The notes beneath the pieces were generated by a model, which saw only the letters and a program-made list of their open reading frames with translations, searched no databases and was not told the origin of the DNA. 38,107 bases of DNA from a virus, in IMG/VR virus record IMGVR_UViG_3300028394_003185, positions 1 through 38,107 of that record. One strand, written 5' to 3'. The position numbers and the translations under genes are program-made. Shown in pieces: positions 2,858-27,037 of the stretch. Within the stretch, counting starts at the first letter, position 1; the number at the start of each line of letters is the position of its first letter.

Positions 2858-3499
2858 TTACTCAACTAAAGCACAGGCTACCCCGCCACGATTTAATAAC
2901 TTTTCTAAATTACTTATTTCAATATAACCGTTACCTGTCACTCCCCATTCCGTACCCCAAGAATTTCTTATCCATATTCGATTATGCAAGCCATCAAAGC
3001 GAAATGCTAAAACAGCATGATGTCCTAATAAATTACCACCTAGTGTAATTTGTCCATCTTTTTCTGGTATATTCATTTTATCATACCATGGGATACTCAT
3101 TACAATAGGGCTTATTGTATTGAGGTATAGTGATACTTCTTCTGATTTACATGTCCAGTATTTTTTCTTAATAATTTTTTTATTAATAAGATATTCTATA
3201 GCGTGATTTAGCTGACAGCCTTCAATATTATCAGGTGTGTTTCCTAGTTTACGGGCGGCGTTATATATTTCAAGCGGTTTACACGGTTCTTGAGAGATAG
3301 GTTCTGCATTAAGTAACCCCGTCAAAGCCATATCAACACAAATACCTTTATCTCCTTGATCTAAGACTTTACCTATTTTATAATTACGAAAAATAGTCTC
3401 TTTCTTAGTACTCATCGTTAATGGAAATCCTAATTGACTATCTGGTATTTTAAACGGGAGCGCGCCATAAGATTTCTTTTGAGGAGTATTATTAGACAT
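2858..3499 (-). CDS. Papain-like (C1A) cysteine protease
   Basis: The 213-residue protein has the complete catalytic layout of the papain family. The oxyanion Gln48 and nucleophile Cys54 are in DQGDKGICVDMA, the catalytic His160 or His161 in LLGHHAVLAF, and Asn179 in RNSWGTEWG, followed by the typical GYIEI strand. It has no long inhibitory propeptide and no signal peptide, so it would act in the host cytoplasm or in the virion. Targets are unknown; host defence or phage structural proteins are possible. It sits between the gp46 gene and two lipoprotein genes. The ATG lies inside a 9-base inverted repeat (3492-3517). Papain-family enzymes are uncommon in phages, so the call rests on the motifs. 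Confidence 0.82.
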   Translation of the reverse strand: MSNNTPQKKSYGALPFKIPDSQLGFPLTMSTKKETIFRNYKIGKVLDQGDKGICVDMALTGLLNAEPISQEPCKPLEIYNAARKLGNTPDNIEGCQLNHAIEYLINKKIIKKKYWTCKSEEVSLYLNTISPIVMSIPWYDKMNIPEKDGQITLGGNLLGHHAVLAFRFDGLHNRIWIRNSWGTEWGVTGNGYIEISNLEKLLNRGGVACALVE

Positions 3500-5337: not shown

Positions 5338-6389
5338 TCTTTACATTTCCGATACAAGTCGATAGTATAGTTTATTATAGCTTCTTTATTTTTAATATCT
5401 AGTAAGTTAGTAAATTCAATAATGGCTTGTTCTATATCAATACCTGAAAGATCCTGCTTTTCTTTATTATCATCTAATATTCTATTAAAGTTAATATCGT
5501 AATCGACTGTTAATGCTTGAGGAGATAATAAGTTTAATTTTTTAATAAGAATATTCATATCATCTTGACAAATATTCTGATCAACTTTAAGTTTTACAAT
5601 ATTTTTATCAAATATTTTTTTAATTTTATCTGTAAAGCTACCTTCCTTTACTAATTCACTCAAGTATATACGCTCATATAAAGGGGATACTTTATTTTCT
5701 ATAAACTCATATTGCAGAGTATCTAGATCTAATACATGATAACCTTTAGTATTGCCAGCATCACCGAAATCCATCTGAAAAGGATTACCCGTATATAATA
5801 TTGTACCAGAATCGTATTGCTTTTCATGCCTATAATGAAAATGTCCTGATATTACTACTGGAGCTTTATATAGAAGATCTGGTATATTAAATCCTTCTTC
5901 ACAATACTTAAAAGTATTCATTTTAAAACTTACAATTTCAAAATGTCCAAATATTATATCACTTTTTGGTATATCTTCTATAGCAGTGTTCCAAGGACAA
6001 AAAGTTATAGTACGATCAAAAGCTTCTAGTGTATATACACTATCAAATATAGTAACATTCTTTCTATTTTTAAAAATAGATAAAGAATTTACATCTGTTC
6101 TATGCTTAAAATAAATATCATGATTACCAGTAATAGCAATTAAATTAAAATCTTTAAATATATCTAATATATCTGCTGATATCTGTAAAGTACTTACTGA
6201 AATCTCACTACGATTGTGATGCCAATCACCACAAAAAATAATATCAGTAATCTTTTTATTATTAAGCTCTTCTTTTAACCATTTTGCCCAGTTTATTGCT
6301 ATTTCATGCCAAAAGCTACTATTAGAATGAATACCTAGATGTAAATCAGATATAATAGCTACTTTTGATTTATTCAGCGTTATATTCAT
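5334..6389 (-). CDS. 47: Recombination endonuclease subunit (T4 gp47, Mre11/SbcD-like)
   Basis: The 351-residue metallophosphoesterase nuclease forms a complex with gp46. Metal-binding motifs appear in the expected order: ISDLHLG (residues 14-20), FCGDWHH (52-58), ITGNHD (86-91) and, later, SGHFHYRHE. The frame is open further upstream to a TTG at 6407, but the ATG at 6387-6389 gives the usual Mre11 N-terminus (short strand then SDLHLG) and is preferred. It overlaps the 3' end of gene 55 by 20 bases and the start of gene 46 by 4 bases, which indicates one transcript 55-47-46, the same order and partners as in T4. Confidence 0.93.
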   Translation of the reverse strand: MNITLNKSKVAIISDLHLGIHSNSSFWHEIAINWAKWLKEELNNKKITDIIFCGDWHHNRSEISVSTLQISADILDIFKDFNLIAITGNHDIYFKHRTDVNSLSIFKNRKNVTIFDSVYTLEAFDRTITFCPWNTAIEDIPKSDIIFGHFEIVSFKMNTFKYCEEGFNIPDLLYKAPVVISGHFHYRHEKQYDSGTILYTGNPFQMDFGDAGNTKGYHVLDLDTLQYEFIENKVSPLYERIYLSELVKEGSFTDKIKKIFDKNIVKLKVDQNICQDDMNILIKKLNLLSPQALTVDYDINFNRILDDNKEKQDLSGIDIEQAIIEFTNLLDIKNKEAIINYTIDLYRKCKE

Positions 6390-6819
6390 CGTAATTATCA
6401 GAGTCAATTGGTTTAATGTAAATATGCTGCCCGTGTGTAGTATACGGATCGTTCATAGCACTTTCATAAAACTGCTCTTTATAATTTGTTAACGCTTCGT
6501 GATGTCTTTTTTCCTTTTTAATTCTATTAATGAATGCGTGAAAGGCGATTGTAGTAAAGTAAGAGAAGGGATTAGAGTTAGCGTCGAAGCTATACTTTCT
6601 ATATTTCAAAGCTGCATACATTTTTATTAAGGCATCTCCTATCATATCATCTTTATATGTATAGTTAATAAAAGATGGATTATAACTTAATCCATAAGCT
6701 ATCTTCTTTATATTTTCTGCAAGATCGTCAGTTAATTTATCACATTCGTAATATACTCTTAATGATTCTTTAAAATCTTTTGGATCAACATAATTGTGCT
6801 TCTCTTTAACTTCCTTCAT
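6370..6819 (-). CDS. 55: Late-transcription sigma factor (T4 gp55-like)
   Basis: The 149-residue protein resembles T4 gp55, the small sigma factor that directs host RNA polymerase to TATAAATA late promoters. Shared landmarks are an N-terminal NYVDPKDF (T4: NYVNNKEL) and a central FSYFTTIAFHAFINRIKKEKR (T4: [21 protein letters not shown]), the region 2-like core. The C-terminus is acidic (SDNYDEYNAE), as expected for the tail that contacts the gp45 clamp in T4. The ATG at 6817-6819 is used; the frame extends only two codons further to a TTG. The presence of this gene fits the late boxes found throughout the window. Confidence 0.88.
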   Translation of the reverse strand: MKEVKEKHNYVDPKDFKESLRVYYECDKLTDDLAENIKKIAYGLSYNPSFINYTYKDDMIGDALIKMYAALKYRKYSFDANSNPFSYFTTIAFHAFINRIKKEKRHHEALTNYKEQFYESAMNDPYTTHGQHIYIKPIDSDNYDEYNAE

Positions 6820-6848
6820 ACACAATGATATTATGGTTATTAATTAAA

Positions 6849-8294
6849 TCAAGGCTGAGCTATATATTTTATAGTATTTTTTATTTTTTCTAGCTTATAA
6901 ATTTCTTGTCTTTTTAGATTATGCTCTTTACCATACTTTAAATTATCAGCAATATCTAAAATTATTAACTTTTCTTTATTATTATGCTTTCTTAAACCTC
7001 TGCCAATCGATTGAACTGTACGTACAAAGGATTTACCTCCTGCGGCAAAGATAATATTATGAAGATTTTTAATATTAACACCGGTTGAGAAGATAGCACT
7101 AATAGCAACACATATAATGTTGTTATTTTTTTCCATTATTTGCTTTATTTTTTCTCTTTCATCAACTTCAACCGAGCCTCTTATAAAAAAGACCTGCTTA
7201 TCAGCGAGATTTAATAATTTGTTATAAACTATCTCACCATGTTCAATAAAATTAACAAGTATTAATGTATTATTATTGAGTTTTTTACTTAAAGTTAACA
7301 ATAAGTTATTTCTAAACTCACTATTATGTAAAAACGTCAATTCATCTCTGTAACTATTGTCAGTTAGATTAGGAGGTTTGCTGTTATATGTAATATCTAG
7401 TGTTTTGATCTCAACATTTACTAAAAACTCTTCTGTTCTTAGCTCATAACTTGATTTTTCGTATATTGTTGGACCAAATTTACCTAAAATAGACCATTTA
7501 TCGATTTGTTCTTCGGGTAGAGTACCTGTAAAACCATACTTACTAAGTGTTTTTATCTTAGAAACTATCTTACTAATCTTATTATCTGCTTTAATGCCGT
7601 GTGCCTCATCTACTATAAGTAAATCTACATACTTTACCCATTCGTTTTTATCGAATTGACTCTGAAGTATACCTATATTACAAATAATAACGTTAGCTGA
7701 CATGTCTGGTGCATGAGAACCAGTCCATTTTGTAAGATTAAAGGTAATACCACAGTTAATAAACTCATCATACGTCTGTGCTACTAAGCCTAAGTCAGGT
7801 ACAATGACTAAACACTTAAATAAGTTAGGTTTAGCGCTGTTTTTATAGTGATTTTCGATAAGAGCTGCTGTTACAAACGTTTTTCCTGCACCAGTACCTA
7901 GGATACATAGCCCTCTTCCTAACTTTAAAGCTTTTAACACAACTTCTTCTTGATAATCACGTAACTTAAACGTAAAAGTATCAAGAAGTATAGGATTACT
8001 ATTAGATATTGCGTCTAATACCTCTTGTAATTTACTTGTTATAACAAGATTAACAAGTTTTTGTGTTTCTATAAGGTATTTTCGTAACTCCCAGTAGATT
8101 CCAAACTCACAAATGCCTGTTGGTGTTATTATATACTTACGTTGTGGTGCAAATCTATTAGAACGACGTGCAAAGTGTGCATTCTTAATCTTAACACTAA
8201 AAAAGTTACGGATTTCTATAAATAAATCAGTATTTTCCGTGTAAATTCGCAGTTTACCTGTAGAAACAGTGTAATCTAGTGTAATATCCGTCAT
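6849..8294 (-). CDS. uvsW: UvsW-like RNA-DNA/recombination helicase
   Basis: This 481-residue SF2 helicase matches T4 UvsW, which unwinds R-loops and branched DNA and helps shift from origin- to recombination-dependent replication. An N-terminal domain with FIEIRNFFSVK (T4: FHELRDFFSFE) precedes the helicase core: GTGAGKT (residues 133-139), VDEAHG (DEAH at 229-232), GFTGTLPEE (motif III), and the second RecA lobe with LVNFIEHGEIVYN and TVQSIGRGLRKH (motif VI). It is coupled to the upstream gene, the start codon overlapping its stop (ATGA). The uvsY-uvsW adjacency is as in T4. Confidence 0.9.
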   Translation of the reverse strand: MTDITLDYTVSTGKLRIYTENTDLFIEIRNFFSVKIKNAHFARRSNRFAPQRKYIITPTGICEFGIYWELRKYLIETQKLVNLVITSKLQEVLDAISNSNPILLDTFTFKLRDYQEEVVLKALKLGRGLCILGTGAGKTFVTAALIENHYKNSAKPNLFKCLVIVPDLGLVAQTYDEFINCGITFNLTKWTGSHAPDMSANVIICNIGILQSQFDKNEWVKYVDLLIVDEAHGIKADNKISKIVSKIKTLSKYGFTGTLPEEQIDKWSILGKFGPTIYEKSSYELRTEEFLVNVEIKTLDITYNSKPPNLTDNSYRDELTFLHNSEFRNNLLLTLSKKLNNNTLILVNFIEHGEIVYNKLLNLADKQVFFIRGSVEVDEREKIKQIMEKNNNIICVAISAIFSTGVNIKNLHNIIFAAGGKSFVRTVQSIGRGLRKHNNKEKLIILDIADNLKYGKEHNLKRQEIYKLEKIKNTIKYIAQP

Positions 8295-8707: not shown

Positions 8708-8980
8708 ATGAATAAATCAATAGGTAGATTTCAAGAAGCTTTTAATAAAGTAATAGAGGAAGACTCTTCTACTGCAGGAGCTCTTGGTGGTTCTGCTGGA
8801 GGATTTAATCCAGCTGCAGGTAAAATTACGTCAACTGACTTTTATGCTTCTGGAGATGCGCGAATCGCAACTCCTGATGGCATTATACAAAAACGAACTG
8901 GTGCAATAAAGTTAAAATCAAAACGAACACGTAAACAAACTAAAAGACGTACACAAAAACGAAGAACAACAGCACTATGA
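8708..8980 (+). CDS. Small protamine-like late protein with putative capsid-targeting N-terminus
   Basis: The 90-residue protein has three parts. Residues 1-17 (MNKSIGRFQEAFNKVIE) form a basic amphipathic peptide ending in VIE, like T4 capsid-targeting sequences that are cut after hydrophobic-x-E by the prohead protease. The middle is Gly/Ala-rich and low in complexity. The last 30 residues are extremely Lys/Arg-rich (SKRTRKQTKRRTQKRRTT) and should bind DNA like a protamine. Its late promoter and the protein's design suggest an internal virion protein packed with the genome. It overlaps the next gene by 4 bases (ATGA). No family is recognised. Confidence 0.65.
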   Translation: MNKSIGRFQEAFNKVIEEDSSTAGALGGSAGGFNPAAGKITSTDFYASGDARIATPDGIIQKRTGAIKLKSKRTRKQTKRRTQKRRTTAL

Positions 8981-9399
8981 TTGACTTAGGGCATTGGAAC
9001 TATGCTAATATATTAACAGAATCTACTGAATTACCGTTCGGATTTGTATATATTATTACAAATTGTGTTAATAATAGAAAGTATATTGGTAAAAAACAAT
9101 GTCAAACTGTTAAAAAGCGAGCACCTCTTAAGGGTAAAACAAGGAAAAGACGTGAAATAGTTGAGACAGACTGGAAAACATACACATCATCTTCAAATGA
9201 TTTAAATAAAGACATAGAATTACACGGTAAATCTAATTTTAAATTTGAAATATTACAGTGGTGTAACTCAAAATGGATGTTATCATACGTAGAAGCTAAA
9301 CTTCAATTTGAACATGAAGTACTTTTAGATAGCTCATACTATAATGGAATCATTAACTTACGAATCGGTAAAAAACCAGCAAGCTACAATAGTTTATAA
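8977..9399 (+). CDS. GIY-YIG nuclease-like protein
   Basis: The 140-residue protein contains the GIY-YIG core: GFVYIITN (residues 22-29) and KYIGKK (35-40), then a basic linker (KTRKRRE), a helix SNDLNKDIELHGKSNF and YVEAKLQFEHE, where Glu106 would be the metal-binding Glu, and NG/IN residues near 123-127. In other phages such proteins are homing endonucleases or host/competitor DNA nucleases. This one has no extra DNA-binding domain and is co-transcribed with late virion-type genes. Its N-terminus (MIDLGHWNYANILTE) ends in LTE, which fits the (L/I)-x-E prohead protease rule. It may thus be packaged. It overlaps both flanking genes. Confidence 0.75.
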   Translation: MIDLGHWNYANILTESTELPFGFVYIITNCVNNRKYIGKKQCQTVKKRAPLKGKTRKRREIVETDWKTYTSSSNDLNKDIELHGKSNFKFEILQWCNSKWMLSYVEAKLQFEHEVLLDSSYYNGIINLRIGKKPASYNSL

Positions 9400-9922
9400 T
9401 TTTAATAATAGTAAAATTAATTTACTTAATATAAATGATATCATAAGAGATGCATACTTTCAAGTAAATATAGATGCAAGTACGTATAATATACCAGATG
9501 ATTATAAAAACGGTGATATAAAAAAGTTATTTTATAACTATGTGATTTATGGCTTATGTGAAATATTAAAGGTTAAGCATAATAGTTATAAAACAATTAT
9601 ATACTTTAACACTCACTCTATATTCAATAAAGAAAGAGGTAAAGATTTTATTAAAACTGTTAATTATATCGTTAAGAATTTAATAAAAATATTACCTTTT
9701 GTTTTTATTAGCAGTAATTATACTTTTTCAACTTTTATTCAAAAAGTTCAGCAAAACGACGCAGAATGTTGTATTTTAACAGAGGATAGTATTAAAAAAG
9801 CATTTAATTTTGATATATGTAAAATAACATCAAAAAAGCTTAATTCTTTTATTAATAAGAACGATTTAACATTTTTGAGTAATGGTTATTTTAAGAATAA
9901 CCTCTACAAATTGTTATTTTAA
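9344..9922 (+). CDS. Hypothetical protein
   Basis: The 192-residue protein belongs to no family I recognise. It is rich in Asn, Lys, Ile and aromatic residues and has alternating hydrophobic strands and helices, for example KTIIYFNTHSIF, LIKILPFVFISSNYTFSTFI and DAECCILTEDSI, which suggest a small alpha/beta domain. It has no signal peptide or clear membrane segment. The ATG at 9344 overlaps the GIY-YIG gene by 56 bases; no later in-frame ATG exists in the first half, so the overlap is probably real. It lies in the late operon but lacks the N-terminal hydrophobic-x-E peptide of its neighbours. Confidence 0.55.
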   Translation: MESLTYESVKNQQATIVYNFNNSKINLLNINDIIRDAYFQVNIDASTYNIPDDYKNGDIKKLFYNYVIYGLCEILKVKHNSYKTIIYFNTHSIFNKERGKDFIKTVNYIVKNLIKILPFVFISSNYTFSTFIQKVQQNDAECCILTEDSIKKAFNFDICKITSKKLNSFINKNDLTFLSNGYFKNNLYKLLF

Positions 9923-9923
9923 G

Positions 9924-9931
9924 TATAAATA
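9924..9931 (+). promoter_or_regulatory. Late promoter box TATAAATA for the gene at 9937
   Basis: Exact late consensus directly after the previous stop codon, with a 5-base gap to the ATG; +1 equals the A of ATG. Confidence 0.8.
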
Positions 9932-9936
9932 TTGTT

Positions 9937-10347
9937 ATGAGTAAATTTTTAAGGATGATAGAATCGAGTCTTCCATCAGAAGACCAGACTAATCGTACAT
10001 TAACGTCTAATAGTGTGCTTATGGATATAACAGATAGTATACGCAATTTAAATTTAACATATTTTATTAAACCAAAAAGACCTTCTAACCCAGCGATGAC
10101 CGGAGATGTAAAAGAGACTGGTATTGTATATGTTAATGACACACCTAAATTTAAAATTACTATAACACCTATTGGATCTGAAGATGCAGAAGATGCTGAT
10201 ATTATAGGTGGTGGTATAAAAACAAGTACTAAATACGGGCCCGGCGCTCGTGTAGCTGCAGATAAACTAGCTCAAACTGCGACACGTAGATTTTCTGATG
10301 TAGAGAAAGAATTAAATTCAAGAAAACCTAAAGCAAATATAATTTAA
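9937..10347 (+). CDS. Late protein with putative capsid-targeting N-terminus
   Basis: The 136-residue protein is not recognised. It begins with MSKFLRMIE followed by SSLPSEDQ, a short basic amphipathic stretch ending in MIE that resembles the capsid-targeting peptides of T4 internal proteins. The middle includes LNLTYFIKPKRP and FKITITPIGSEDAEDADIIGGG, and the C-terminus is basic and helical (AADKLAQTATRRFSDVEKEL). Its perfect late promoter and shared N-terminal style suggest an internal virion protein. The stop codon TAA overlaps the next ATG (TAATG). Confidence 0.6.
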   Translation: MSKFLRMIESSLPSEDQTNRTLTSNSVLMDITDSIRNLNLTYFIKPKRPSNPAMTGDVKETGIVYVNDTPKFKITITPIGSEDAEDADIIGGGIKTSTKYGPGARVAADKLAQTATRRFSDVEKELNSRKPKANII

Positions 10348-10913
10348 TGAAAACTCTAAATCTAATAAACAAATATTTTAGAATTATAGAGCAAAGTAAT
10401 GAATCTCTTGATGCAACAGAGCCAACCGCTCAGCAACCTCAAGAAGGAGCACCTGCTTCTGAGCAACCTGAAAAAGAGGATAAAGGTATAGCTAGTGCTG
10501 GAGAGCAATATTTAATTGTTTTAGCTATTAAGGCGTTTGCACATACTCCTAACAGTCAAGAATTGCGGTGGCTAGATAAGATACAATCAACTTATCGTAA
10601 TACAAATCCTAAAAAAATAGCAGCACACATAGCTCCAAGGGTTGGTCTTTCACAAAAAGAATTTTCAAAGTTATATGTAGCTCCTAAGCCAGATCAAGAA
10701 GTTAATACGTTATCTGAAGAGGGTGAAAAGATGTTAATTGATATCATTATGAGAGCATTTGAACATACTCCAGATGATAATGAATTATCTATAATAGATA
10801 CAGTGCGTCGAGAATATTTTAAAACTGATCCAGAAGAAGTTACCTCAACGATACAAAAGTTACTTGATGGTGGTAAAGAAGAGCTTATAAATACTATCAA
10901 TCAATATTATTAA
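10347..10913 (+). CDS. Late protein with an internal duplicated domain and putative capsid-targeting N-terminus
   Basis: The 188-residue protein starts with MKTLNLINKYFRIIE then QS, a good fit to the (I/L)-x-E cleavage rule of T4 prohead protease. A Gln/Pro/Glu-rich linker (residues 20-50) leads to two copies of a helical unit of about 43 residues, at 52-94 and 126-169. They share the frame GE-x2-LI-x4-(K/R)AF-x-HTP-x3-EL-x-x(L/I)D-x6-Y-x(N/K)T(N/D)P. The HTP...EL pattern suggests a small helical DNA- or protein-binding module, but no known family is recognised. It is translationally coupled to the gene before and followed closely by the next. Confidence 0.62.
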   Translation: MKTLNLINKYFRIIEQSNESLDATEPTAQQPQEGAPASEQPEKEDKGIASAGEQYLIVLAIKAFAHTPNSQELRWLDKIQSTYRNTNPKKIAAHIAPRVGLSQKEFSKLYVAPKPDQEVNTLSEEGEKMLIDIIMRAFEHTPDDNELSIIDTVRREYFKTDPEEVTSTIQKLLDGGKEELINTINQYY

Positions 10914-10917
10914 AATT

Positions 10918-12288
10918 ATGAATCATAGACTTGAAGCTATATATGAAAGTATGTATACACGTGAAAGCGGTAACGTATTTAAAGCGGATCCTACTAAACG
11001 TATTACTGCGATAAATAAAAATTGGCAGCTTGAAGCGATATATGAAAAAATAAACAATCCAGATTTTAAAGGCTATAAGAGTAAAAAAGCTGTAGCTCAA
11101 GCTATTGTAGATAATAATCCTGATTTTAAAATTGGTTCCTCTAAATCTGGAATTAGAATTCAACCTGTAGATGCAGAAGCAGCTAAGGATGAAAATAATT
11201 TAAAACAATCTTTAATTGATAGCTTAGATGATATTCATTTAGTACTCACTGATACGCTAAATCCTAATGATCCAGGTAATCCATCTGGAACATTTAACGC
11301 ATATAAAGTTAAAGATACAATAACTGATAACGAATTTATTGTTGTTATTTCACGAGGCGCGGCTGGTAATAAAGGTATGACGTATGAAAGAGATATTCTT
11401 GAATCATTCAAACAATATTTTGATGCTTTAGATAGAGATGAAACAGACGAAGAGAAAAAAGAAATTGAAAAACCTTCAATGATTGAAAAGCTTGAAGATA
11501 ATTTAGATGTTGAGTTTGTAGGGGTAGATGAAGGTACATCATTTACAAGATCTGTAAAGCGTCCATTAACAATAGCTGGAGCTAATGATAGAGGTCGAGA
11601 TATTGCAGATATTACGTTAATTGATAGTAACAAAAAGTCATATTTTATATCTTTAAAGGACATTGATGGAAAGACAGTAGGTAATGCAGGAGCTGCTAAA
11701 ATGTTTAAGATTGACAAAACAGATAAAGAAATAGATTTTATAAATAAAGAACGTGATGGTATTGGAGGAGATTTAATGAAAGCAGCAGGTGTACGTATAC
11801 TTTATGTTGAAAGAGGCTTATCTGATTATGCTAAAAAGAGAGTATCATCACCTGAATTATCTAAAATAGAAGATACTACCAATAGCCCAGATTTAGATTT
11901 AACTAAACTTCATAAGTTTATTGAATCAGCTTTTGATTATGGTTATATTTATGTTAAACGAAAAAATAAGAAAGATGACTTAGAAATAGAAGATTTAAGA
12001 GATAAAAATAAGTTAATTGATTATATTGGTGATATCACCAAAGTACAAGTAAAGTACCCGTTTTATAGATCTGATGCGTGGCAGGATAGTAGAAAGAGTG
12101 TCAGTATTATAATGACAACTGAAAAGAATGTTTACAGTTTTGATATAAGAAATAAAAGCCGTAATATTATACCTTCTGAAATTAATTTAGTAAAATTAGG
12201 CTCTAAAAAAGAATTAAAAGCTACAGCAAGTAGTGCTGCTAAGACAGATACTGGAAATAAACAATTAAGTAAAATGCTTAACCGATGA
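10918..12288 (+). CDS. PD-(D/E)XK nuclease-like late protein, putative capsid cargo
   Basis: The 456-residue protein has a candidate restriction-endonuclease-like core: YERDILESF (Glu157/Glu162), then RGRDIADITLID (Asp228/Asp231) followed by a hydrophobic strand SYFISLKD (S-x-K, Lys247). This is the D...(E/S)xK spacing of the PD-(D/E)XK fold. The N-terminus MNHRLEAIYE-S fits hydrophobic-x-E cleavage, and LEAIYE is repeated at residues 38-43. It also has GNVFKADPTKRI, which is shared with the start of the next protein (GNVFKKHPTSRI). A nuclease carried in the capsid could attack host DNA or act in genome processing; this is inferred. The stop overlaps the next ATG. Confidence 0.55.
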   Translation: MNHRLEAIYESMYTRESGNVFKADPTKRITAINKNWQLEAIYEKINNPDFKGYKSKKAVAQAIVDNNPDFKIGSSKSGIRIQPVDAEAAKDENNLKQSLIDSLDDIHLVLTDTLNPNDPGNPSGTFNAYKVKDTITDNEFIVVISRGAAGNKGMTYERDILESFKQYFDALDRDETDEEKKEIEKPSMIEKLEDNLDVEFVGVDEGTSFTRSVKRPLTIAGANDRGRDIADITLIDSNKKSYFISLKDIDGKTVGNAGAAKMFKIDKTDKEIDFINKERDGIGGDLMKAAGVRILYVERGLSDYAKKRVSSPELSKIEDTTNSPDLDLTKLHKFIESAFDYGYIYVKRKNKKDDLEIEDLRDKNKLIDYIGDITKVQVKYPFYRSDAWQDSRKSVSIIMTTEKNVYSFDIRNKSRNIIPSEINLVKLGSKKELKATASSAAKTDTGNKQLSKMLNR

Positions 12289-13997
12289 TTAATTTTAAAA
12301 CGTATTATGATATAATTTGTGAGGGAGGTAATGTGTTTAAGAAGCATCCAACATCCCGTATTGATCTTGCTTATATATTACCAACTGTTCAGTTTTTATC
12401 TACACTTACAGGACAAGATTTAACTAAAACAATGTTTGGTAGCACCGGCAAGCGACCATCGTCTGGCGACTTAGATTTAGGTATTGACGAGACAAAATTA
12501 TCAAAACAAGAATTAGTAGATAAATTAACTAGATGGTGTATTGAGCGTGGATTTGATCCTAAAGAATATATAGCAAAATCAGGAATAAGTGTACATTTTA
12601 GAACACCTATTATTGGCAATGAAGAAGAAATGGTACAAACAGATTTCATGTTTGTACCTGATCCTAAATTTGCAAAATTTGCTATTGCTAACAATGAATC
12701 TATACCTTTTAAGGGTGTTCATTGGAACTTAGTGATGTCAAATTTAGCTAAAAATATAGGATTAAAATGGGGAGGTTTAAATGGGTTACGCACTCGTACT
12801 AAGCCTGAAGAAATTATTGAAAATCAAAATCCAGATAGGGTAGCACAATTATTATTAGGTGATCAGCGCGCAACTGCTAAAAATTTATATGATATAAGTA
12901 GTATTTTTAAGTTTTTACTTAAAAAATATAGAGATGTTACTGCGGTTAAGTCATTATTAAGTCAAGCACAAGAAACTATACTTAAAACAGATAATATAAA
13001 TATCTTTGAATTACTTAAAGGTGGTATCATACAAGAAAGTCAAACAAGTACCGGTGCAAGAGTAGGGGTTCAGCATCTTTATACTGAATATAAGCCTGAT
13101 CAATACTCTATGAGTTTTGATAATTTTAAAACACTTATAGATATTTTAAATTCACAAGGTGGTATTATACAACCGGCGAATTCTAGCTTATCTGAAAAAG
13201 CAGATGGTATGAGTGTAAAGTTTGGTGTTACTACTAATGACGAGTTTTTCTTACAAGGCAGCGGCAAGAATGCATTTTCAACATCAGGCGATTTTACTGG
13301 AACAATTAAGCATGATTTAACTAGAAATGCTTTTGAAAGTAACTTTCAAAGAATAAAAAAATTAGTGTTTAAGCAACTTTTAAAATATAAGAAACACTAT
13401 GAATTAAATGGTATACGCATTCAAGCTGAATGGTTATATTCACCATTTGCGTTGCATCGTGATAATCTACCAGGTGTTGTGTATTTTGTAGCAACTAATT
13501 ATGAGAAAGACAAGCTTGGAGAATGGTCAACCTTCCCAATAATTAATATTACAGACATTGAAGGTGCTGAATTACCTGCAATTATATCTTCTAGCATAGA
13601 GCATATGTTAACAAGTCTTTCTAATGACGATGTTAAGTTTTTACCTCTTAATATAGAGGTTTTTGAACCTATTAATTTATCATCTGACGTACATACAGCA
13701 GTACAACAGATAAAAATATTAACTTCACAAATACCAAATTATGTAGAAATTTTAAGTAATCCATCAAGAAAACGTGAAGATCAACAGAATAAAAAAGAGT
13801 TACTGGAAAAAATTAAACTTATGTTCTTACCTATTCAACGAGATATGCATAACAAGATTTTAAAAGCAGCTGCAGTTATTGGTGGTAAGCTCGGCGAATT
13901 TGAAGGTATAGTTGTTAAATTAAAAGATGAAAGCAACAAACCTTTCTTATTTAAGGTTATTAATACAAAATTTCACACTCAAAAAGGTAGAATATGA
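12285..13997 (+). CDS. Fusion of Pol-beta-type nucleotidyltransferase and ATP-dependent nucleic acid ligase, putative capsid cargo
   Basis: The 570-residue protein joins two enzymes. Residues 50-125 carry a Pol-beta superfamily site: FGSTGKRPSSGDLDLGID (Gly52-Ser53, Asp62, Asp64) and VQTDFMFV (Asp120, third carboxylate). Residues 300-570 carry ligase/nucleotidyltransferase motifs: EKADGMSVKFG (motif I, Lys305 as the AMP-accepting lysine), RIQAEWLY (motif III, Glu382), GEFEGIVVKL (motif IV, Glu540) and FLFKVIN (motif V, Lys557). The N-terminus (MINFKTYYDIICE-GG) ends in ICE, and GGIIQE-S (residues 246-252) between the domains is a second such site. Repair of nicked DNA or cleaved RNA is plausible; which is unknown. 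Confidence 0.78.
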   Translation: MINFKTYYDIICEGGNVFKKHPTSRIDLAYILPTVQFLSTLTGQDLTKTMFGSTGKRPSSGDLDLGIDETKLSKQELVDKLTRWCIERGFDPKEYIAKSGISVHFRTPIIGNEEEMVQTDFMFVPDPKFAKFAIANNESIPFKGVHWNLVMSNLAKNIGLKWGGLNGLRTRTKPEEIIENQNPDRVAQLLLGDQRATAKNLYDISSIFKFLLKKYRDVTAVKSLLSQAQETILKTDNINIFELLKGGIIQESQTSTGARVGVQHLYTEYKPDQYSMSFDNFKTLIDILNSQGGIIQPANSSLSEKADGMSVKFGVTTNDEFFLQGSGKNAFSTSGDFTGTIKHDLTRNAFESNFQRIKKLVFKQLLKYKKHYELNGIRIQAEWLYSPFALHRDNLPGVVYFVATNYEKDKLGEWSTFPIINITDIEGAELPAIISSSIEHMLTSLSNDDVKFLPLNIEVFEPINLSSDVHTAVQQIKILTSQIPNYVEILSNPSRKREDQQNKKELLEKIKLMFLPIQRDMHNKILKAAAVIGGKLGEFEGIVVKLKDESNKPFLFKVINTKFHTQKGRI

Positions 13998-14545
13998 AAT
14001 CTTTTAAGCAGTATTTTCAAGAACAAGTTGTAGAAGATTCTATAGCTATATTACCTGGAGGATTTAAACCACCTACAAAAGGACACTTTAACGCTTTTAA
14101 TTATTTGTTACAAGACGCTAATAGAGGTATTGTATGTATCGGTAATAAAGATAGAGAAGGTATTACTGCTGAAATGTCTAAAAAGATATGGCAAATATAT
14201 TCTAAATACTTTAATAAGCCTGTAGAAGTAATAATGTCGTCAAGTTCGCCTGTTAGATTAGTTTATGATATTGCTGTAGCAAACCCTGATAAAAAACTAT
14301 ATATAGGAGCAGGTTCTAAAGATGACAAAGATGATAGATTTACTAGTTTTACTAAAAATATAGAAAAATACCCTCTTGTAAATATTGTGCATATACCAAT
14401 GCAATCTGAAGGTATATCTGGAACATTAACAAGACAAAAGATTCAAACAAATATTGATGATGCGTTAGATTATTTTTTACCCGACTCTGTTAAATCAAAT
14501 AGAGAAGACGTTTTACAAATAAAAAATATTTTATTGAATAAATAA
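13994..14545 (+). CDS. Nucleotidylyltransferase (HxGH/ISxTxxR superfamily), putative capsid cargo
   Basis: The 183-residue protein belongs to the cytidylyltransferase-like superfamily (NMN/nicotinate-nucleotide, pantetheine-phosphate and FAD adenylyltransferases). It has the first motif GGFKPPTKGHFNAF (residues 22-35, the T/HxGH site) and the second ISGTLTRQKI (141-150, ISxTxxR). These bind the triphosphate of ATP or CTP. Substrate cannot be read; NMN adenylyltransferase (NAD synthesis) is a reasonable candidate. Its N-terminus MKSFKQYFQE-Q looks strikingly like the T4 internal-protein leader MKTYQEFIAE-A. Start overlaps the previous stop by 4 bases. A late-expressed, packaged NAD-type enzyme would be unusual. 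Confidence 0.8.
   Translation: MKSFKQYFQEQVVEDSIAILPGGFKPPTKGHFNAFNYLLQDANRGIVCIGNKDREGITAEMSKKIWQIYSKYFNKPVEVIMSSSSPVRLVYDIAVANPDKKLYIGAGSKDDKDDRFTSFTKNIEKYPLVNIVHIPMQSEGISGTLTRQKIQTNIDDALDYFLPDSVKSNREDVLQIKNILLNK
14537..14544 (+). promoter_or_regulatory. Late promoter box AATAAATA for the gene at 14550
   Basis: Late-type box overlapping the previous stop codon, 5 bases before the ATG; +1 equals the A of ATG. Confidence 0.72.
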
Positions 14546-14549
14546 ATAT

Positions 14550-14933
14550 ATGTTTACGAGTAAAGATCAGGCAAAATTATCTAATATATACACACTTATA
14601 GAGGAAATGAATCTAAGTCCTGTATTACAGGGTAATGAACTAGAAATAGCTGCTGTAATACCTACAGCAGAACATGAAGAGGAAACTGATAGTGCAGTTA
14701 CTATGGCTGCTTCTGATTTGTATAAGATAGAAAGAATAGTATCCGATTTACATACAAAGATTGAAAGTCTACCTAAAATAAAGGGTTGGGAAGCTGCTAA
14801 AATTACTTTAGCAGCTGATTATTTATCATCTGTTCATGATTCGATTACTCATGAAATGCAAGCTGATTGCGGATGTAATCATGAAGACTCTTCTGAAATG
14901 TTTTCCTTAGGATATGAAGATGAAGAAATTTAA
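14550..14933 (+). CDS. Late helical protein with putative capsid-targeting N-terminus
   Basis: The 127-residue acidic protein begins MFTSKDQAKLSNIYTLIE then EMN; LIE is a canonical (I/L)-x-E site. The body has two long helices, one containing DLYKIERIVSDLHTKIESLP and one with GWEAAKITLAADYLSSVHDSI, a pattern I associate with small late proteins of marine T4-like phages. A CGC-NH motif (residues about 114-118) near the acidic C-terminus could bind metal. Function is unknown. Its 3' end overlaps the start of the next gene. Confidence 0.6.
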   Translation: MFTSKDQAKLSNIYTLIEEMNLSPVLQGNELEIAAVIPTAEHEEETDSAVTMAASDLYKIERIVSDLHTKIESLPKIKGWEAAKITLAADYLSSVHDSITHEMQADCGCNHEDSSEMFSLGYEDEEI

Positions 14934-15357
14934 ACAATTTTTTTTAGAAAAGCAAATATTAGGTCTTATTGAATTTTTTGATATTGAGGGTATCGGTAAA
15001 ATTCCTGCTAAATTAGACTCTGGTAACGGCGCGTTTAATGTGTTACATGGAGATAATATACAGATTCAAGGTAAAAAAATATTCTTTAAAACTGTTAATA
15101 ATAAAACTGTTGTTAAAGATATTAAAGATACCATAATGATTAATATCGGATCTGGGCATACTGAAGAAAGACCAGTTGTTTATTTTAATGTAACTGTAGG
15201 TAGTAAGAACTTTAATGATGTTCCTTTTTCTATAGGTGATAGAACTACTAACATATATAAAATATTAGTAGGAAAAGACTTTATTGAAAATAATCTGGAT
15301 GCTTTAATTGATGTTGGTCAAGAAAATATTGCAGATTATAATATACAGGCTAATTAA
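14914..15357 (+). CDS. Retropepsin-like aspartic protease, putative capsid cargo
   Basis: The 147-residue protein resembles the retropepsin-like family that includes proteins annotated as RimK-associated or 'ATP-dependent zinc' proteases. GKIPAKLDSGNGAFNVLHG matches the A-K-(I/L)-D-(T/S)-G active-site loop with the catalytic Asp at residue 35. The later block DVPFSIGDRTTNIYKILVGKDFI matches the family's (T/G)DRS..YPVLLG..F pattern. A single Asp per chain implies a dimer. The ATG at 14914 or the one two codons later (14920) could be used; from the latter the N-terminus is MKKFKQFFLE-K, very like T4's MKTYQEFIAE. Convergent with, and overlapping by 4 bases, the gene on the minus strand. Confidence 0.66.
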   Translation: MKMKKFKQFFLEKQILGLIEFFDIEGIGKIPAKLDSGNGAFNVLHGDNIQIQGKKIFFKTVNNKTVVKDIKDTIMINIGSGHTEERPVVYFNVTVGSKNFNDVPFSIGDRTTNIYKILVGKDFIENNLDALIDVGQENIADYNIQAN

Positions 15358-15893
15358 GAAATAAACCAATCTGGAGATTTACGATGTGTCCAGGTAGCAA
15401 ATTTTTTATCATGTATAATATATTTGCGATATTGGTCGATAACCGATAAGGTGTTAAATTCAGGAGTTAATAATTTACACTCACTATTATCACTAATAGC
15501 TACTGCATAAGGAGTTAAATCTGTTTTAGTTATGGTGGTATTATGAATATTATCTTTGCACCACTTAATAAATTGATGAGTAAAATGTTCAGCAGCAGTT
15601 GGCCATCTAAGCATTCTTTCAGTAAACATTTCTAAGGTATGATCAACAAGCCATCGAAAATTTTCGATGGATTCTCTAGCCCAAATTGAACATTGATGTT
15701 TAGCATAACCTTTACCTGACTTACGCGGTGTACCTTTTTGTGTTCTAGGAGTTGATGGGTGATTTAATACATCCTGAGGAAAAGCATGAGCTAGCATAAT
15801 AGCTGATTCTATGATCATTTTACTTCTAACATGTTGATCGCAAAGATTATGCGCTGCAATAATAGGATTAGAATCGGTTACAAAAATATTCAT
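15354..15893 (-). CDS. Conserved phage protein of unknown function
   Basis: The 179-residue protein begins MNIFVTDSNPIIAAHNLCDQHVRSKMIIESAIMLAHAF, a pattern (D-x-D/N-P..AA..LCD.HV.KM..E.A..L) I recognise from uncharacterised proteins in many T4-like and other phages. The conserved Asp, Cys, His and Glu and a Trp-rich C-terminal half (WLVDHTLEMFTERMLRW, IKWCKD) suggest an enzyme, but I do not know its activity. It lies 11 bases after folE and is probably read from the same transcript; a TATACT box 5 bases before its ATG is also possible. It meets the cargo cluster tail to tail. Confidence 0.6.
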   Translation of the reverse strand: MNIFVTDSNPIIAAHNLCDQHVRSKMIIESAIMLAHAFPQDVLNHPSTPRTQKGTPRKSGKGYAKHQCSIWARESIENFRWLVDHTLEMFTERMLRWPTAAEHFTHQFIKWCKDNIHNTTITKTDLTPYAVAISDNSECKLLTPEFNTLSVIDQYRKYIIHDKKFATWTHRKSPDWFIS

Positions 15894-15904
15894 TATATAG
15901 TATA

Positions 15905-16579
15905 TTAATTACGGGAAGACATATCGATAAATTTATAAAATTCATTTCGAGTCTTTTCATCATTCATAAAATCACCTGATAGTTTACTTGTTACCATATA
16001 GCATCCATCATGCTTAATACCACGGTGACATGCACATGTATGTTGAGCTTTAATTACAACAGCAGCTCCTAAATTGTCTTCACAAGCAAGGTTAATGGCA
16101 TTATGTACTTGAGTTGTAAGGGCTTCTTGCAATTGTGGCCGTCTACCATAAAATTCAACAATTCGATTAAGCTTACTCAAGCCAATTACTTTACCGCTAC
16201 TTGAAGGAATATAAGCAACATGTACTACACCAGTAAAAGCAAGATGGTGATGAGAACAAAGAGATTTAAGCGGAATATTACATTGAGCAATAATACCATC
16301 ATAACCATCAGAAGGAAAAGCAGTAACAGATGGAGGCTGACTATAACAGCCTGATGCAATATCATTTACAAAAGCTTTTGCTACTCGCATAGGAGTATTA
16401 GCAGAGTTTGGATCATTACGCCAATCAAAGCCTAAAGCATCCATATATTTTTCATAAGCTGCAGCTGCACGCTTAATAATAACTTGCTTTTCTTGCTCCG
16501 TACGAGGAGAATTACCATTTGCATTAGGTAATTTAAATACTTCACCAACCTGTATTGTATTAATATCTGTTTCTTCCAT
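15905..16579 (-). CDS. folE: GTP cyclohydrolase I (FolE)
   Basis: The enzyme converts GTP to dihydroneopterin triphosphate, the first step of preQ0/7-deazaguanine (and folate) synthesis. The 224-residue product has the zinc site: Cys and His in SLCSHHHLAFTG and Cys in AQHTCACHRGI, with the family block YIPSSSGKVIGLSKLNRIVEFYGRRPQLQEALTTQ. The open frame extends upstream to 16951, but that part is antisense to the gene at 16632 and has no FolE similarity. The ATG at 16577-16579 gives a normal N-terminus and lies 6 bases after a TGAACTA-type promoter. Together with queD and queE nearby it points to modified guanine in phage DNA or host tRNA. Confidence 0.95.
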   Translation of the reverse strand: MEETDINTIQVGEVFKLPNANGNSPRTEQEKQVIIKRAAAAYEKYMDALGFDWRNDPNSANTPMRVAKAFVNDIASGCYSQPPSVTAFPSDGYDGIIAQCNIPLKSLCSHHHLAFTGVVHVAYIPSSSGKVIGLSKLNRIVEFYGRRPQLQEALTTQVHNAINLACEDNLGAAVVIKAQHTCACHRGIKHDGCYMVTSKLSGDFMNDEKTRNEFYKFIDMSSRN

Positions 16580-16585
16580 AAGAAT

Positions 16586-16613
16586 ATTATAAGGTAGTTC
16601 ATTTAAATAACAA
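16586..16613 (-). promoter_or_regulatory. Middle/early-type promoter of folE
   Basis: Minus strand: TTGTTA (16608-16613), 16-base spacer, TATAAT (16586-16591), with TGAACTA (16595-16601) 3 bases before the -10; 6 bases to the folE ATG. Confidence 0.8.
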
Positions 16614-16618
16614 TAGAG

Positions 16619-16626
16619 AATAAATA
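16619..16626 (+). promoter_or_regulatory. Late promoter box AATAAATA for the gene at 16632
   Basis: Late-type box with a 5-base gap to the ATG; +1 equals the A of ATG. It faces away from the folE promoter in a 52-base divergent intergenic region. Confidence 0.72.
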
Positions 16627-16631
16627 AAAAT

Positions 16632-17654
16632 ATGTTAAAGAGTCGTGAAGTATATTCAGAAAGTTTTGCAAGTATTGTACGTACTGCAAAAGCGGTAAAA
16701 GATTCTAGGGTTGGGCGCGTTGTCGGAGCGGTAGGATCACTTGCTGGAAGAACTTTTGCGCCGGAGTTAATGAATATTAAAGATAAATACGCTGCTAATA
16801 TTAAAAAGGTGTTTAGAGCTTTTAATGAACCTAAAGCTGCATTAAAAGATTTGTTTGAGAGCAATCCAGATAAATTTAGAAACTGTAAATTAGTAGAATT
16901 GGTAAAAGATAGTGCTGCAGGTGTAATTCCGGAAGCAGCTGCTCCATACATGGGTCCGGGAAATTTTCCAGCTCCTGGAGTTCAGCAGGGGAGGTTGCCA
17001 GTTCCTCCACCTGCGCGCCCAAAAGCGGCGATACGAACGAATACCCCTGCAGCTGTGAATACCCCTGCAGCTGTGAATACCTCCGTAGCTCTAAAAAATA
17101 AAAAATATAAAGGTTCTTATAAAGCAATTTTTGAAGGTAATGTTAAAAAAGGTAATGACGCAAATTCACCTCTACAATACAGTAAGAATTTTTCCGTTAC
17201 TATAAAGCCTAATAATCCCAGAAATGACGGAGATATAAAATATGTAGCAGATACAGTTATTTTTAAAGATGATGTAAAGTTTACTCAACTTGATGATTCA
17301 AATAGTAATACAAATGACAAAGCTTATAAAGTATTATTTACCTCTAATAAGATATTAAAAAATAAATTTAAATTAAATTCTAAACCTAATTTTAATAGTC
17401 TAGGTGATATTAAAAAAGGTGATCCATTAATGGGTTATAAGTTAAATTTTGATGGCACAGTTACGGTCGCTGGATCGTCTAACCCGGTTAAAGACGACGA
17501 ATATATTATTGTTAAAAATAATAATGGACGTCTACAAAGTACCGGTAAGCTGTATAAGGGTGGTAAAGTAATTGTCAGCAGTGTAAATATAAATTATAGT
17601 CAAAAAAATCTAATACTTGAATCAAAAAAGTTAGTTGACTTATTTTGTAAGTGA
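16632..17654 (+). CDS. Late protein, putative capsid cargo with Pro/Ala repeat linker
   Basis: The 340-residue protein is not recognised. MLKSREVYSE-SF at the N-terminus again ends in hydrophobic/aromatic-x-E. Residues 20-100 are basic, Ala-rich and helical. A Pro/Gly/Ala linker (about 100-155: MGPGNFPAPG, PVPPPARP, then NTPAAV repeats) joins a C-terminal beta-rich domain (YKAIFEGNVKK, FSVTIKPNN, GYKLNFDGTVTVAG, GRLQSTGKLYKGGKVIV). The layout suggests a packaged or structural protein. Local base composition in the N-terminal third and linker is richer in GC than its surroundings, possibly because of the Ala/Pro/Gly codons. It sits between folE and queD. Confidence 0.6.
   Translation: MLKSREVYSESFASIVRTAKAVKDSRVGRVVGAVGSLAGRTFAPELMNIKDKYAANIKKVFRAFNEPKAALKDLFESNPDKFRNCKLVELVKDSAAGVIPEAAAPYMGPGNFPAPGVQQGRLPVPPPARPKAAIRTNTPAAVNTPAAVNTSVALKNKKYKGSYKAIFEGNVKKGNDANSPLQYSKNFSVTIKPNNPRNDGDIKYVADTVIFKDDVKFTQLDDSNSNTNDKAYKVLFTSNKILKNKFKLNSKPNFNSLGDIKKGDPLMGYKLNFDGTVTVAGSSNPVKDDEYIIVKNNNGRLQSTGKLYKGGKVIVSSVNINYSQKNLILESKKLVDLFCK
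17040..17090 (+). repeat. 18-base in-frame tandem repeat
   Basis: Two exact copies of an 18-base unit starting AATACCCCTGCAGCTGTG (17040-17057, 17058-17075) and a third diverged, shorter copy to 17090. They encode NTPAAV repeats in the linker of the protein. Confidence 0.85.
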
Positions 17655-22540: not shown

Positions 22541-23371
22541 ATGAAGATTGGTGTAGGTATTATTACTTGTAATAGACAAGACTACTTAACTAATTTATTA
22601 ACGTCAATTTATCCTTGTGAAGACATTAATGAATTAGTAATTGTTAATGACGGCTCACCTATTGATAATATTGATTTTAATAAACCATATTCATATATCC
22701 TAAATGATAATAATCTTGGAATAGCTAAATCTAAAAATAAAGCTATGAAGCATTTATTAGATTCAGGGTGTGATTATATTTTTATTATTGAGGATGATAC
22801 AGTTATTAAAGATACAGATATTTTTAATGCCTACATTAATGCTTCAAAAGTGACAGGTATACAGCATTTTAATTTCGGTCCCGGTACACCTTTTAACCGA
22901 AAGCAAAAGATAACTAATTTTGATTTAAATAATAGACATTTATTAGATAATGAGTCAACTCCTAATCCAAAAATAACTATTGATTATAGTATATTAAAAA
23001 TTGATCTGTATGAACATATTGCAGGTGTTTTTAGTTTTTTTACAAAAGAAATTCTACATATTGTTGGATTAAATGATGAAAGGTTTTATAACGCCTGGGA
23101 GCATGTAGAACATACATATAGAATTATTAAAGCGAACGGTCACCCTCCGTTTTGGTGGTTTGCTGATATTCATAATAGTGTAAAGTATTTAGAAGTACCA
23201 TCAGAAGCTATTACTAATAGCTCAACATCAAATAATAAAGAAGAGTGGTATAAAAATATTCATAAGGGTAGAGAACTATATAAAGAAATTCATAATTTTT
23301 ATCCTAACATGACACCTCATACATTAAAACAAGATGTATTAATTAATTTAAAGAGTATAAAAAATGGATAA
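22541..23371 (+). CDS. Family 2 (GT-A) glycosyltransferase
   Basis: The 276-residue protein has the GT-A nucleotide-binding start IGVGIITCNRQDYLTNLL, VIVNDGSP, then NNLGIAKSKNKAM and the metal-binding FIIEDDT (DxD-like). HIAGVFSFFTKE and WEHVEHTYRI follow where the catalytic base is expected. It transfers a sugar from a nucleotide donor, acceptor unknown. It is the first gene of a plus-strand run with short overlaps to 29269, expressed from a late-type box 6 bases upstream. Confidence 0.82.
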   Translation: MKIGVGIITCNRQDYLTNLLTSIYPCEDINELVIVNDGSPIDNIDFNKPYSYILNDNNLGIAKSKNKAMKHLLDSGCDYIFIIEDDTVIKDTDIFNAYINASKVTGIQHFNFGPGTPFNRKQKITNFDLNNRHLLDNESTPNPKITIDYSILKIDLYEHIAGVFSFFTKEILHIVGLNDERFYNAWEHVEHTYRIIKANGHPPFWWFADIHNSVKYLEVPSEAITNSSTSNNKEEWYKNIHKGRELYKEIHNFYPNMTPHTLKQDVLINLKSIKNG

Positions 23372-24776
23372 TTTAACGTTAATAACATGCTCTTATAATA
23401 CGCCAGATGTAACATTAACAATGTTAAAATCTTGGATGTTAGTCCATAATAAAACGCAGAGACTAATTGTATGTGATAACTCGACTAATGACGATACAAA
23501 AAAATTGTTAGATGAACACCATATTCCCTATGTAAGCAGACCAGGTATGTCTCATGGCGATGGTGTAAATGAAGCGTTAAAATTATGTAAAACAAAATAT
23601 GCTTTACTTGTAGATACAGATGTTATATTTTTAAAAGATCATAGTAAAATTTTTAATAAGTTTAAAGATTTAAAATTAGCTATTATGGGTAAAGTTGAAG
23701 GAGATCGTGGAGGTAAATCGATTTATAATCGTATAAATCCTTGGCATTGTTTTATTGATGTTGATCAGATTAAAGAAAATAATATTACTTTTTTTGATCA
23801 AAAAAGAATGCAAGAAAGTTTTAATACTTCTAAAATATATGATATAGGATCTACGTTTTTACAAGATATTAAAGAATGTAAACTAAAAATAGGCGATATA
23901 GATTTATCAAATACATATTACATACACCTAGAAGGTATGAGTTGGTATAAAAATAAATACGATGGAACACAGCCAGATACTGGTATTGATTTTGGTGGTA
24001 CTCATAACAATATAGGTTATGTGAATGCACATAAACAAAAATATCAGAATTATAAAAATGTAGAGCAGCAATATAAAGATATAAAAATATCTAATAAGTT
24101 TATTTATGAAGAACCAAAACTACTAATAAAATTTCCTACAAGAGGTCGAGTAAAAAAATTCTTTAATACATTAGATGAGTATTATAAACTATTGTCTGGT
24201 AAAAATAATGTAAAGTTTCTTATTACATGTGATATTGATGACTTAACAATGAATAATGACATTGTTAAGAGTAGATTTGAATCATATACAAACTTAGAAG
24301 TCATATATGGTAATAATAAATCTAAAATAGAGGCTATTAACGCTGATGTTGAGCATCAGGATTTTCAAATAGTTTTACTAGCTTCAGATGATATGATACC
24401 TATTGTCGCTGGATATGATTCAATTATAATAGAAAATATGTGTAATTATTTTCCTGATTTTGACGGCGTACTTTGGTTTAATGATGGTGTACAGATGAAT
24501 AGACTTAATACACTTTGCATTTTAGGTAAAACATATTATAATAGATTTAATTATATTTATAATCCAGAATATAAGTCCTTATGGTGTGATATGGAGTTTA
24601 CATTAGTAGGAAATATACTAGGTAAACAAAAATACTTTGATAACATTATTATAAAACATGAACATCATTCTGTAACTAATGATGAAATTGATGAGATATA
24701 TATACAAAATGAGGTTTATGAAAGTGAGGATAAACAAACATTTATAAAAAGACAATATGACAAATTTAACACGTAA
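23364..24776 (+). CDS. Two-domain glycosyltransferase
   Basis: The 470-residue protein appears to join two GT-A-like domains. The first (about 1-220) has TLITCSYNTPDVTLTML, LIVCDNSTND, GVNEALKLC and ALLVDTDVIFL (DxD). The second (about 250-470) starts LLIKFPTRGRVKKFF, has LITCDIDDLTM and QIVLLASDDMIP (DD motif), and WFNDG. Similar second domains occur in phage and bacterial glycan enzymes. The two domains could make consecutive linkages. The start overlaps the previous gene by 8 bases and the end overlaps the next by 20. Confidence 0.72.
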   Translation: MDNLTLITCSYNTPDVTLTMLKSWMLVHNKTQRLIVCDNSTNDDTKKLLDEHHIPYVSRPGMSHGDGVNEALKLCKTKYALLVDTDVIFLKDHSKIFNKFKDLKLAIMGKVEGDRGGKSIYNRINPWHCFIDVDQIKENNITFFDQKRMQESFNTSKIYDIGSTFLQDIKECKLKIGDIDLSNTYYIHLEGMSWYKNKYDGTQPDTGIDFGGTHNNIGYVNAHKQKYQNYKNVEQQYKDIKISNKFIYEEPKLLIKFPTRGRVKKFFNTLDEYYKLLSGKNNVKFLITCDIDDLTMNNDIVKSRFESYTNLEVIYGNNKSKIEAINADVEHQDFQIVLLASDDMIPIVAGYDSIIIENMCNYFPDFDGVLWFNDGVQMNRLNTLCILGKTYYNRFNYIYNPEYKSLWCDMEFTLVGNILGKQKYFDNIIIKHEHHSVTNDEIDEIYIQNEVYESEDKQTFIKRQYDKFNT

Positions 24777-26236: not shown

Positions 26237-26238
26237 AT

Positions 26239-27036: not shown

Positions 27037-27037
27037 T

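Follow-up and report, generated by a model that had tools for sequence, protein, structure and literature searches.

The viral record IMGVR_UViG_3300028394_003185 (the window, i.e., the whole record of 38,107 bases that we analyzed) comes from a T4-like phage and holds, at positions 8708-17654, a cluster of genes whose products mostly begin with a short peptide, or leader, ending in hydrophobic-x-E. A preliminary description had taken ten such leaders for basic capsid-targeting peptides like those of the T4 internal proteins, carried by a row of packaged and injected proteins. We favor, with a probability of roughly 0.77, the reading that most of these genes encode prohead cargo with a T4-like capsid-targeting sequence (CTS), which would be cut, kept in the head, and carried into the host. 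Related records used for comparison include G001 to G006. The plus-strand genes of the cluster, named below by their first position, are the following:

8708 to 8980, plus strand: leader to E16/E17, about 37 residues that copy the N-terminal arm of the clade's mature major capsid protein (MCP), and a Lys/Arg-rich tail
8977 to 9399, plus strand: SegE-type GIY-YIG protein (PF19835, E = 3.6e-32)
9344 to 9922, plus strand: protein without the leader motif
9937 to 10347, plus strand: leader MSKFLRMIE; the MSKFL start and a Glu at residues 9-10 occur in most orthologues
10347 to 10913, plus strand: leader MKTLNLINKYFRIIE; Glu kept in orthologues of 20-95% identity
10918 to 12288, plus strand: phrog_8438 protein with the leader MNHRLEAIYE (second leader type)
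12285 to 13997, plus strand: two-part protein with the leader MINFKTYYDIICE
13994 to 14545, plus strand: NMNAT/CoaD-like adenylyltransferase with the leader MKSFKQYFQE
14550 to 14933, plus strand: protein with a leader of the ..KDxxxLxxxY type (orthologues aligned)
14914 to 15357, plus strand: RloA-type retropepsin-like aspartic protease; begun at 14920, its leader (MKKFKQFFLE) agrees with the T4 register
16632 to 17654, plus strand: protein with the leader MLKSREVYSE

All ten peptides are present at these starts in the open reading frames (ORFs) of the window: VIE (8708), LTE (8977), MIE (9937), IIE (10347), IYE (10918), ICE (12285), FQE (13994), LIE (14550), FLE (14914/14920), and YSE (16632). 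The genes are mostly adjacent, as had been described, except that the leaderless 9344-9922 interrupts the run and 16632 is set apart from the other leader genes by a pair of minus-strand genes (15354-16531). With the Glu at residues 6-20, hydrophobic-x-E occurs in 10/11 cluster genes versus 14/39 of the rest (Fisher P = 0.0014); a charge filter sharpens this to 9/11 versus 5/39 (P = 3e-5). The motif is thus commoner at the N-termini of the cluster than elsewhere, yet it comes cheaply. Since 33% of internal 22-mers and 14/39 of the other genes have it, the loose motif carries modest information only, and we rejected it as stand-alone evidence.

Conservation of the leader Glu differs among the ten families. 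Nearly every orthologue of 8708, 10347, 12285, 13994, 14914, and 16632 retains it, and so do most of those of 9937, down to 20-60% identity; the stretch from Glu to the domain varies in length and sequence, and untagged enzyme homologues start at their domain. At the place of 16632, the ORFs of relatives carry LLSE, LLDE, LLQE, LLNE, and LLEE. The leader Glu is thus upheld by conservation in seven families, partly kept in two (10918 and 14550), and not conserved for 8977, whose leader is not basic and whose Glu is Asp in G004 and L002 and absent in G001. The 8977 N-terminus is also common to leaderless relatives, and the GIY-YIG protein was accordingly rejected as cargo, the GIY-YIG domain itself being present.

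The leaders of 10918 and 14550 are of another kind (..LxxxYE / ..LxxAY), a second type that is less certain than the first; in 10918, IYES is kept in L015 and G004 and absent in L002 and L007. This second type may likewise function as a tag, because the G001 counterpart of 8708 carries one (KLYESIYVE) before its MCP-arm copy. The per-family pattern of Glu conservation also fits a mixed operon, in which only 8708, 12285, 13994, 14914, and probably 9937, 10347, and 16632 would be packaged, with 8977, 9344, and perhaps 10918 and 14550 being ordinary late or passenger genes. The second-type leader on the G001 counterpart of 8708 speaks against such a division, which is a narrower form of the favored reading, compatible with it, and in our judgment evenly balanced between true and false.

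The favored reading draws further on the T4 register. In T4 IPIII, the first 10 residues are enough for capsid targeting, which depends on residues 4 and 7, processing depends on residues 8 and 10, and gp21 cleaves after L/I-x-E (PMC9026906). Using a pattern fixed from this published IPIII analysis (residues 4, 7, 8, and 10), we found an exact fit for 13994 (MKSF4KQY7F8QE10) and for 14914 when started at 14920 (MKKF4KQF7F8LE10); the 12285 leader has F4 and Y7, and the remaining leaders are shifted or of the second type. Over all genomes, the pattern matches 28/5220 N-terminal Met candidates versus 7/10027 internal Met, and its only matches in T4 itself are two MKTYQEFIAE internal proteins and gp61.1. 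A scoring matrix whose only training data were internal proteins of T4 and virion proteins of S-CREM2 gave its four top scores among the 49 window ORFs to 14914, 8977, 13994, and 12285. In addition, a leader regular expression matched 16/60 cluster ORFs of the window and G001 to G006 versus 6/433 ORFs elsewhere and 0.4% of internal Met, a contrast whose P value is optimistic because orthologues are counted repeatedly and are not independent.

A further comparison concerns MCP cleavage sites. By alignment, these sites (cut marked by a slash) are SFLTE/A in T4 gp23, SFLAE/A in S-SCSM1, AFLSE/A in Melnitz, and AFLGE/I in HTVC008M, and they resemble the leaders FSSFLTE, FLQFLKE, and FKTFLSE of cyanophage and Melnitz proteins. 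In the window clade, alignment with T4 places the predicted sites at YCFE/Q, WCNE/A, or CLTE/A. The alignment of 8708 to the clade MCPs begins at its leader Glu, opposite the predicted cleavage-site Glu, which supports the capsid-targeting reading.

The strongest support is independent, if indirect, and comes from virion proteomes of related phages. Mass spectrometry (MS) of purified S-CREM2 virions listed 52 proteins (PMC10665884, Table 3). The tag pattern [FYL]xxF[ILFMV]xE near the N-terminus occurs in 8 ORFs of that genome, 7 of them detected in virions; among non-structural ORFs, detection reached 6/7 for tagged ORFs versus 23/206 for the others (P = 2.5e-5). This pattern had been relaxed after the S-CREM2 sequences were seen; restricted to a Glu by residue 12, it gives 5/5 detected (P = 4e-4), and the purely T4-derived pattern, with three matches only, gives 3/3 (P = 0.009). 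The tagged and detected proteins comprise an S-adenosylmethionine (SAM) hydrolase, a nuclease annotated as Cas9-like, ORF13, an APH/ChoK-like kinase, ORF136, and a cytidylyltransferase. Comparable starts are found in the virion NMNAT of S-SCSM1 (MKSFLQFLKE), in the S-CRM01 kinase reported in virions (MISFDQFLSE), and in T4-GC190 members of S-SM2 and P-SSM7 (MKSFFQFLSE and MKKFSAFLTE), T4-GC190 being the cytidylyltransferase found in S-SM1 virions (Sullivan et al., PMC3037559). No earlier report linking the tag to cyanophage virion enzymes was found in the literature searched, with subscription journals outside the search.

The cyanophage authors themselves raised co-purification of abundant proteins and were unable to exclude it. 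On that account, the cluster proteins would be abundant late intracellular enzymes that co-purify with virions, and their shared N-terminus a translation-start habit of AT-rich phages, in which Lys/Phe-rich starts would be expected; the loose motif in 33% of internal 22-mers points the same way. Such a habit leaves unexplained the invariant Glu with its variable linker, the T4 register, the MCP-site alignment, and the rarity of the tag outside the cluster (6/433). We regard this account as highly improbable, and the tag as an argument for true packaging of the cyanophage virion enzymes. As a separate observation, a second cargo cluster lies on the minus strand of S-CREM2 (OR473000, 3837-13331), where the genes for the SAM hydrolase, the nuclease, ORF13, the kinase, and ORF15 are clustered; all five products were in virions, and four of the five genes have clear leaders.

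The first gene of the window cluster, 8708, adds a structural element. Of all window proteins, it matches the G003 MCP arm best (z = 11.2; next best z ≤ 3.2), and it scores 74-94 against the MCPs of G002 to G005, compared with shuffle maxima of 47-53. No similarity between 8708 and T4 gp23 was found by alignment score. We propose that 8708 is a putative packaged capsid-arm mimic, which probably lies against the inner face of the capsid and contacts DNA, because it joins an MCP-arm copy to a basic tail. A non-MCP protein is likewise the best genome match to the MCP arm in T4, S-SCSM1, S-CREM2, Syn9, G001, G002, G004, and G005. These copies, mostly of 54-174 amino acids (aa; 297 aa in S-CREM2), reach z values of 9-18, with the next best at most 5, and each resembles the MCP of its own lineage and carries a charged tail. 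Weaker candidates occur in phiM12 (z = 6.6), Melnitz (z = 5.7), and HTVC008M (z = 4.0), and no clear copies were found in P-SSM2 or Immuto.

Two of the copies are among the closest known parallels to 8708. T4 gp61.1 (NC_000866, 18966-19130) has, like 8708, a CTS-like leader, which aligns to the gp23 cleavage site; its score against the clade MCPs is at most marginal, and no mention of MCP-arm copies, gp61.1 included, was found in the literature searched. S-CREM2 ORF160 (L071:14342-15235), which was present in virions with 7 unique peptides by MS, differs from 8708 in being longer and in lacking an aromatic leader. Both share with 8708 the copied arm of their own phage's MCP and the charged tail, whereas their sequences are unrelated to 8708 save through this likeness. 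The copy tracks the phage's own MCP in T4 (gp61.1), S-CREM2 (ORF160), Syn9, S-SCSM1, and the window with its relatives. Generalized to T4-like phages broadly, exchangeable CTS-leader enzymes would be packaged and injected, and a charged-tail MCP-arm copy would dock inside the capsid and hold DNA or cargo, a proposal to which we give even odds.

The leaders could also be real core-binding tags on proteins whose place of action is the prohead (assembly, maturation, or DNA condensation) rather than the next host. The basic, arm-copying 8708, the protease-like 14914, and the effect of T4 IPIII on head morphogenesis (PMC9026906) all suit this alternative, whereas the NMNAT, kinase, SAM hydrolase, and nuclease of cyanophage virions have no obvious assembly role and close relatives exchange their cargo. 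We consider a role confined to the prohead rather unlikely.

Altogether, the register, the MCP-site alignment, and the MS data of relatives give good support to a predicted capsid-targeting role for most of the proteins, 8977 and 9344 excepted. In the favored reading, the cluster proteins would be synthesized late in infection, and their N-terminal 9-17 residues would act as a CTS like that of T4 IPI-III, with the aromatic residues binding the scaffold core. A gp21-type protease would then cut after (hydrophobic)-x-E, and the mature cargo would remain inside the head beside the DNA and pass with it into the next host. This cargo would include the NMNAT/CoaD-like adenylyltransferase, the ligase-like two-part protein, the RloA-type retropepsin, and further proteins, and its purpose may be NAD/cofactor repair, counter-defense, or takeover. 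What the data show is the conserved tag, its T4 register, the MCP-site alignment, and the association between tag and virion presence in S-CREM2; for the window phage, packaging, cleavage, injection, and purpose are inferred, host entry and role from T4 Alt and IPI (PMC9026906, PMC3012670).

Several points weigh against this reading. The virion proteomes come from related phages only, none from the window phage, and 13994 is kin to the cyanophage virion enzyme at the superfamily level only (phrog_395, E = 0.0016). The cluster proteins differ in leader length and register, 8977 and 9344 fail to fit the leader pattern, and the second leader type is backed by few families. The T4 pattern matches a non-virion uvsY (MELLAKYIDE) by chance, the start codons of the ORF calls are approximate, and the S-CREM2 tests carry the limits given with them.

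T4 IPI, IPII, IPIII, and Alt share with the cluster an N-terminal tag of 10-19 residues with determinants at 4, 7, 8, and 10, the hydrophobic-x-E motif, diverse cargo behind a conserved tag, and a gp21-type protease (here in close relatives); the window cluster differs in its proteins, some of them enzyme-like, and in its processing and injection, which are predictions. T4 internal proteins bearing this tag are ejected, and IPI is a counter-defense protein. Since these and the cyanophage virion enzymes were already reported, the earlier word "undescribed" for the system was too strong. The virion enzymes of S-CREM2, S-SCSM1, S-SM1, and S-CRM01 resemble the window in having an NMNAT-like adenylyltransferase behind a similar leader and in their clustered cargo genes. 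They were shown by MS, whereas the window phage belongs to another clade, with enzyme kin at the superfamily level only, and its fragment is without the kinase, SAM hydrolase, and nuclease. In the giant phages phiKZ and SPN3US, set beside the cluster by description only, a gp21-like protease cleaves many packaged, ejected head proteins behind a Glu (PMC9026906, PMC10052503).

If the favored reading holds, a ten-residue, sequence-readable tag would predict head-carried proteins of T4-like phages, and several marine-phage genes now called hypothetical or "auxiliary metabolic" would become testable injected effectors. It would also explain the recurrent NMNAT-like enzymes and kinases of cyanophage virions and would extend the short list of candidate virion-delivered enzymes by a protease and a ligase-like protein. 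Through T4 gp61.1, the MCP-arm copies are open to experiment in the most thoroughly studied phage.

Among the enzymes, the adenylyltransferase assignment of 13994, made at the superfamily level, is backed by its N-terminal nucleotide-binding motif GGFKPPTKGH (GGFxPPTxGH) and a CoaD match (PDB 4f3r, E = 1e-4), with scores below NCBIfam cut-offs. Its E10 is invariant among orthologues and its linker variable in length, and the leader lies outside the domain, because position 1 of the CoaD model aligns at residue 17. The homologues in RaK2 and GAP32 begin directly at the fold; these two were checked for leader-bearing relatives in RaK2-type jumbo phages, and both are leaderless. The retropepsin-like label of 14914 also stands, given matches to RloA-type retropepsins (PDB 9g58, E = 3.9e-7; 2pma; RloA3, E = 6.9e-8) at scores below curated cut-offs, with a profile match starting at position 10. 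D35 and G37 of the DSG motif, shared with these proteins, and E12 are invariant among orthologues, and 14914 differs from them in carrying the phage leader. For 12285, described as a nucleotidyltransferase-ligase, the motifs are present, namely, GSTGKRPSSGDLDLG in a nucleotidyltransferase-like N-terminal part and SEKADG...EGIVVK in a C-terminal part with ligase-like motifs (KADG, EGIVVK); the weak Foldseek matches to T4 RNA ligase 2 are not significant (E = 0.04; model predicted local distance difference test [pLDDT] score 65). E13-GGNVF is invariant in 10 orthologues. The PD-(D/E)XK-like label for 10918 was not confirmed, as it has no Pfam family above cut-off, a PHROG without assigned function, and a low-confidence model (pLDDT 51). 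No family match above cut-off was found for 9344, and no direct relatives of 12285 and 8708 were found among 50,697 phage records.

At the 12285 locus, the close relative L015 (13552-14853) has a DUF6267 protein with a ligase-like motif (KFDGSPAI) and its own leader, MLKFNQYF; no homology between the two was detected (hhalign probability 2%). Because L015 swaps 12285 for this leader-bearing protein and G002 is without 10918, 12285, and 13994, the cargo turns over whereas the tag persists. In Melnitz, the DUF6267 and adenylyltransferase genes are close neighbors, both with leader-like starts. Since phrog_455 matches both DUF6267 proteins and its C-terminal part matches the Melnitz adenylyltransferase, this double match suggests that fused forms exist.

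Regarding the gene setting, the minus strand of the window holds uvsY, uvsW, gp55, and gp46/47 genes, and the cluster is followed by queuosine-type and PhoH-like genes, a glycosyltransferase region, a gp3-like tail protein, and the gp20 portal (some of these names come from sequence reading only). The expected place of a gp21-type prohead protease gene is beyond the window end; the gene is found in seven related records, including the nearest relatives G003 and G006 (portal 97% identical). Of the cluster genes, 4/11 have the late-promoter motif (T/A)ATAAATA in the 30 bases upstream, versus 3/36 others (P = 0.04, marginal), and the motif shows no enrichment over the window as a whole. TATAAATA stands just upstream of 8708 and upstream of 9937, and AATAAATA upstream of 14550 and 16632.

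Further observations concern other parts of these genomes. G001 has more leader-bearing ORFs outside the cluster (6085-7875, 58201-60333, 68616-68951, and 80729-80968), with leaders such as MTNFGFDYFLE (596 aa), MKSFEEYFMTE (288 aa), and MLNFKQFFFERAFHGSPNEV, the last on a short ORF with weak ADP-ribosyltransferase likeness (PF18760, E = 0.0036). The window encodes a peptidase-like protein on its minus strand (2858-3499; phrog_16701, E = 8.5e-27) and, at 22541-30953, a run of glycosyltransferase-like and methyltransferase-like genes, so named from reading alone, whose content varies among relatives. Finally, ORFs at 1803, 103806, 117631, and 118632 of the Flavobacterium phage Immuto (NC_055915) share the start (M)xNF(D/N)L(K/R)xFL(V/T)EN(K/R)LT, perhaps another tag family, and one of them is annotated as a cob(I)alamin adenosyltransferase.

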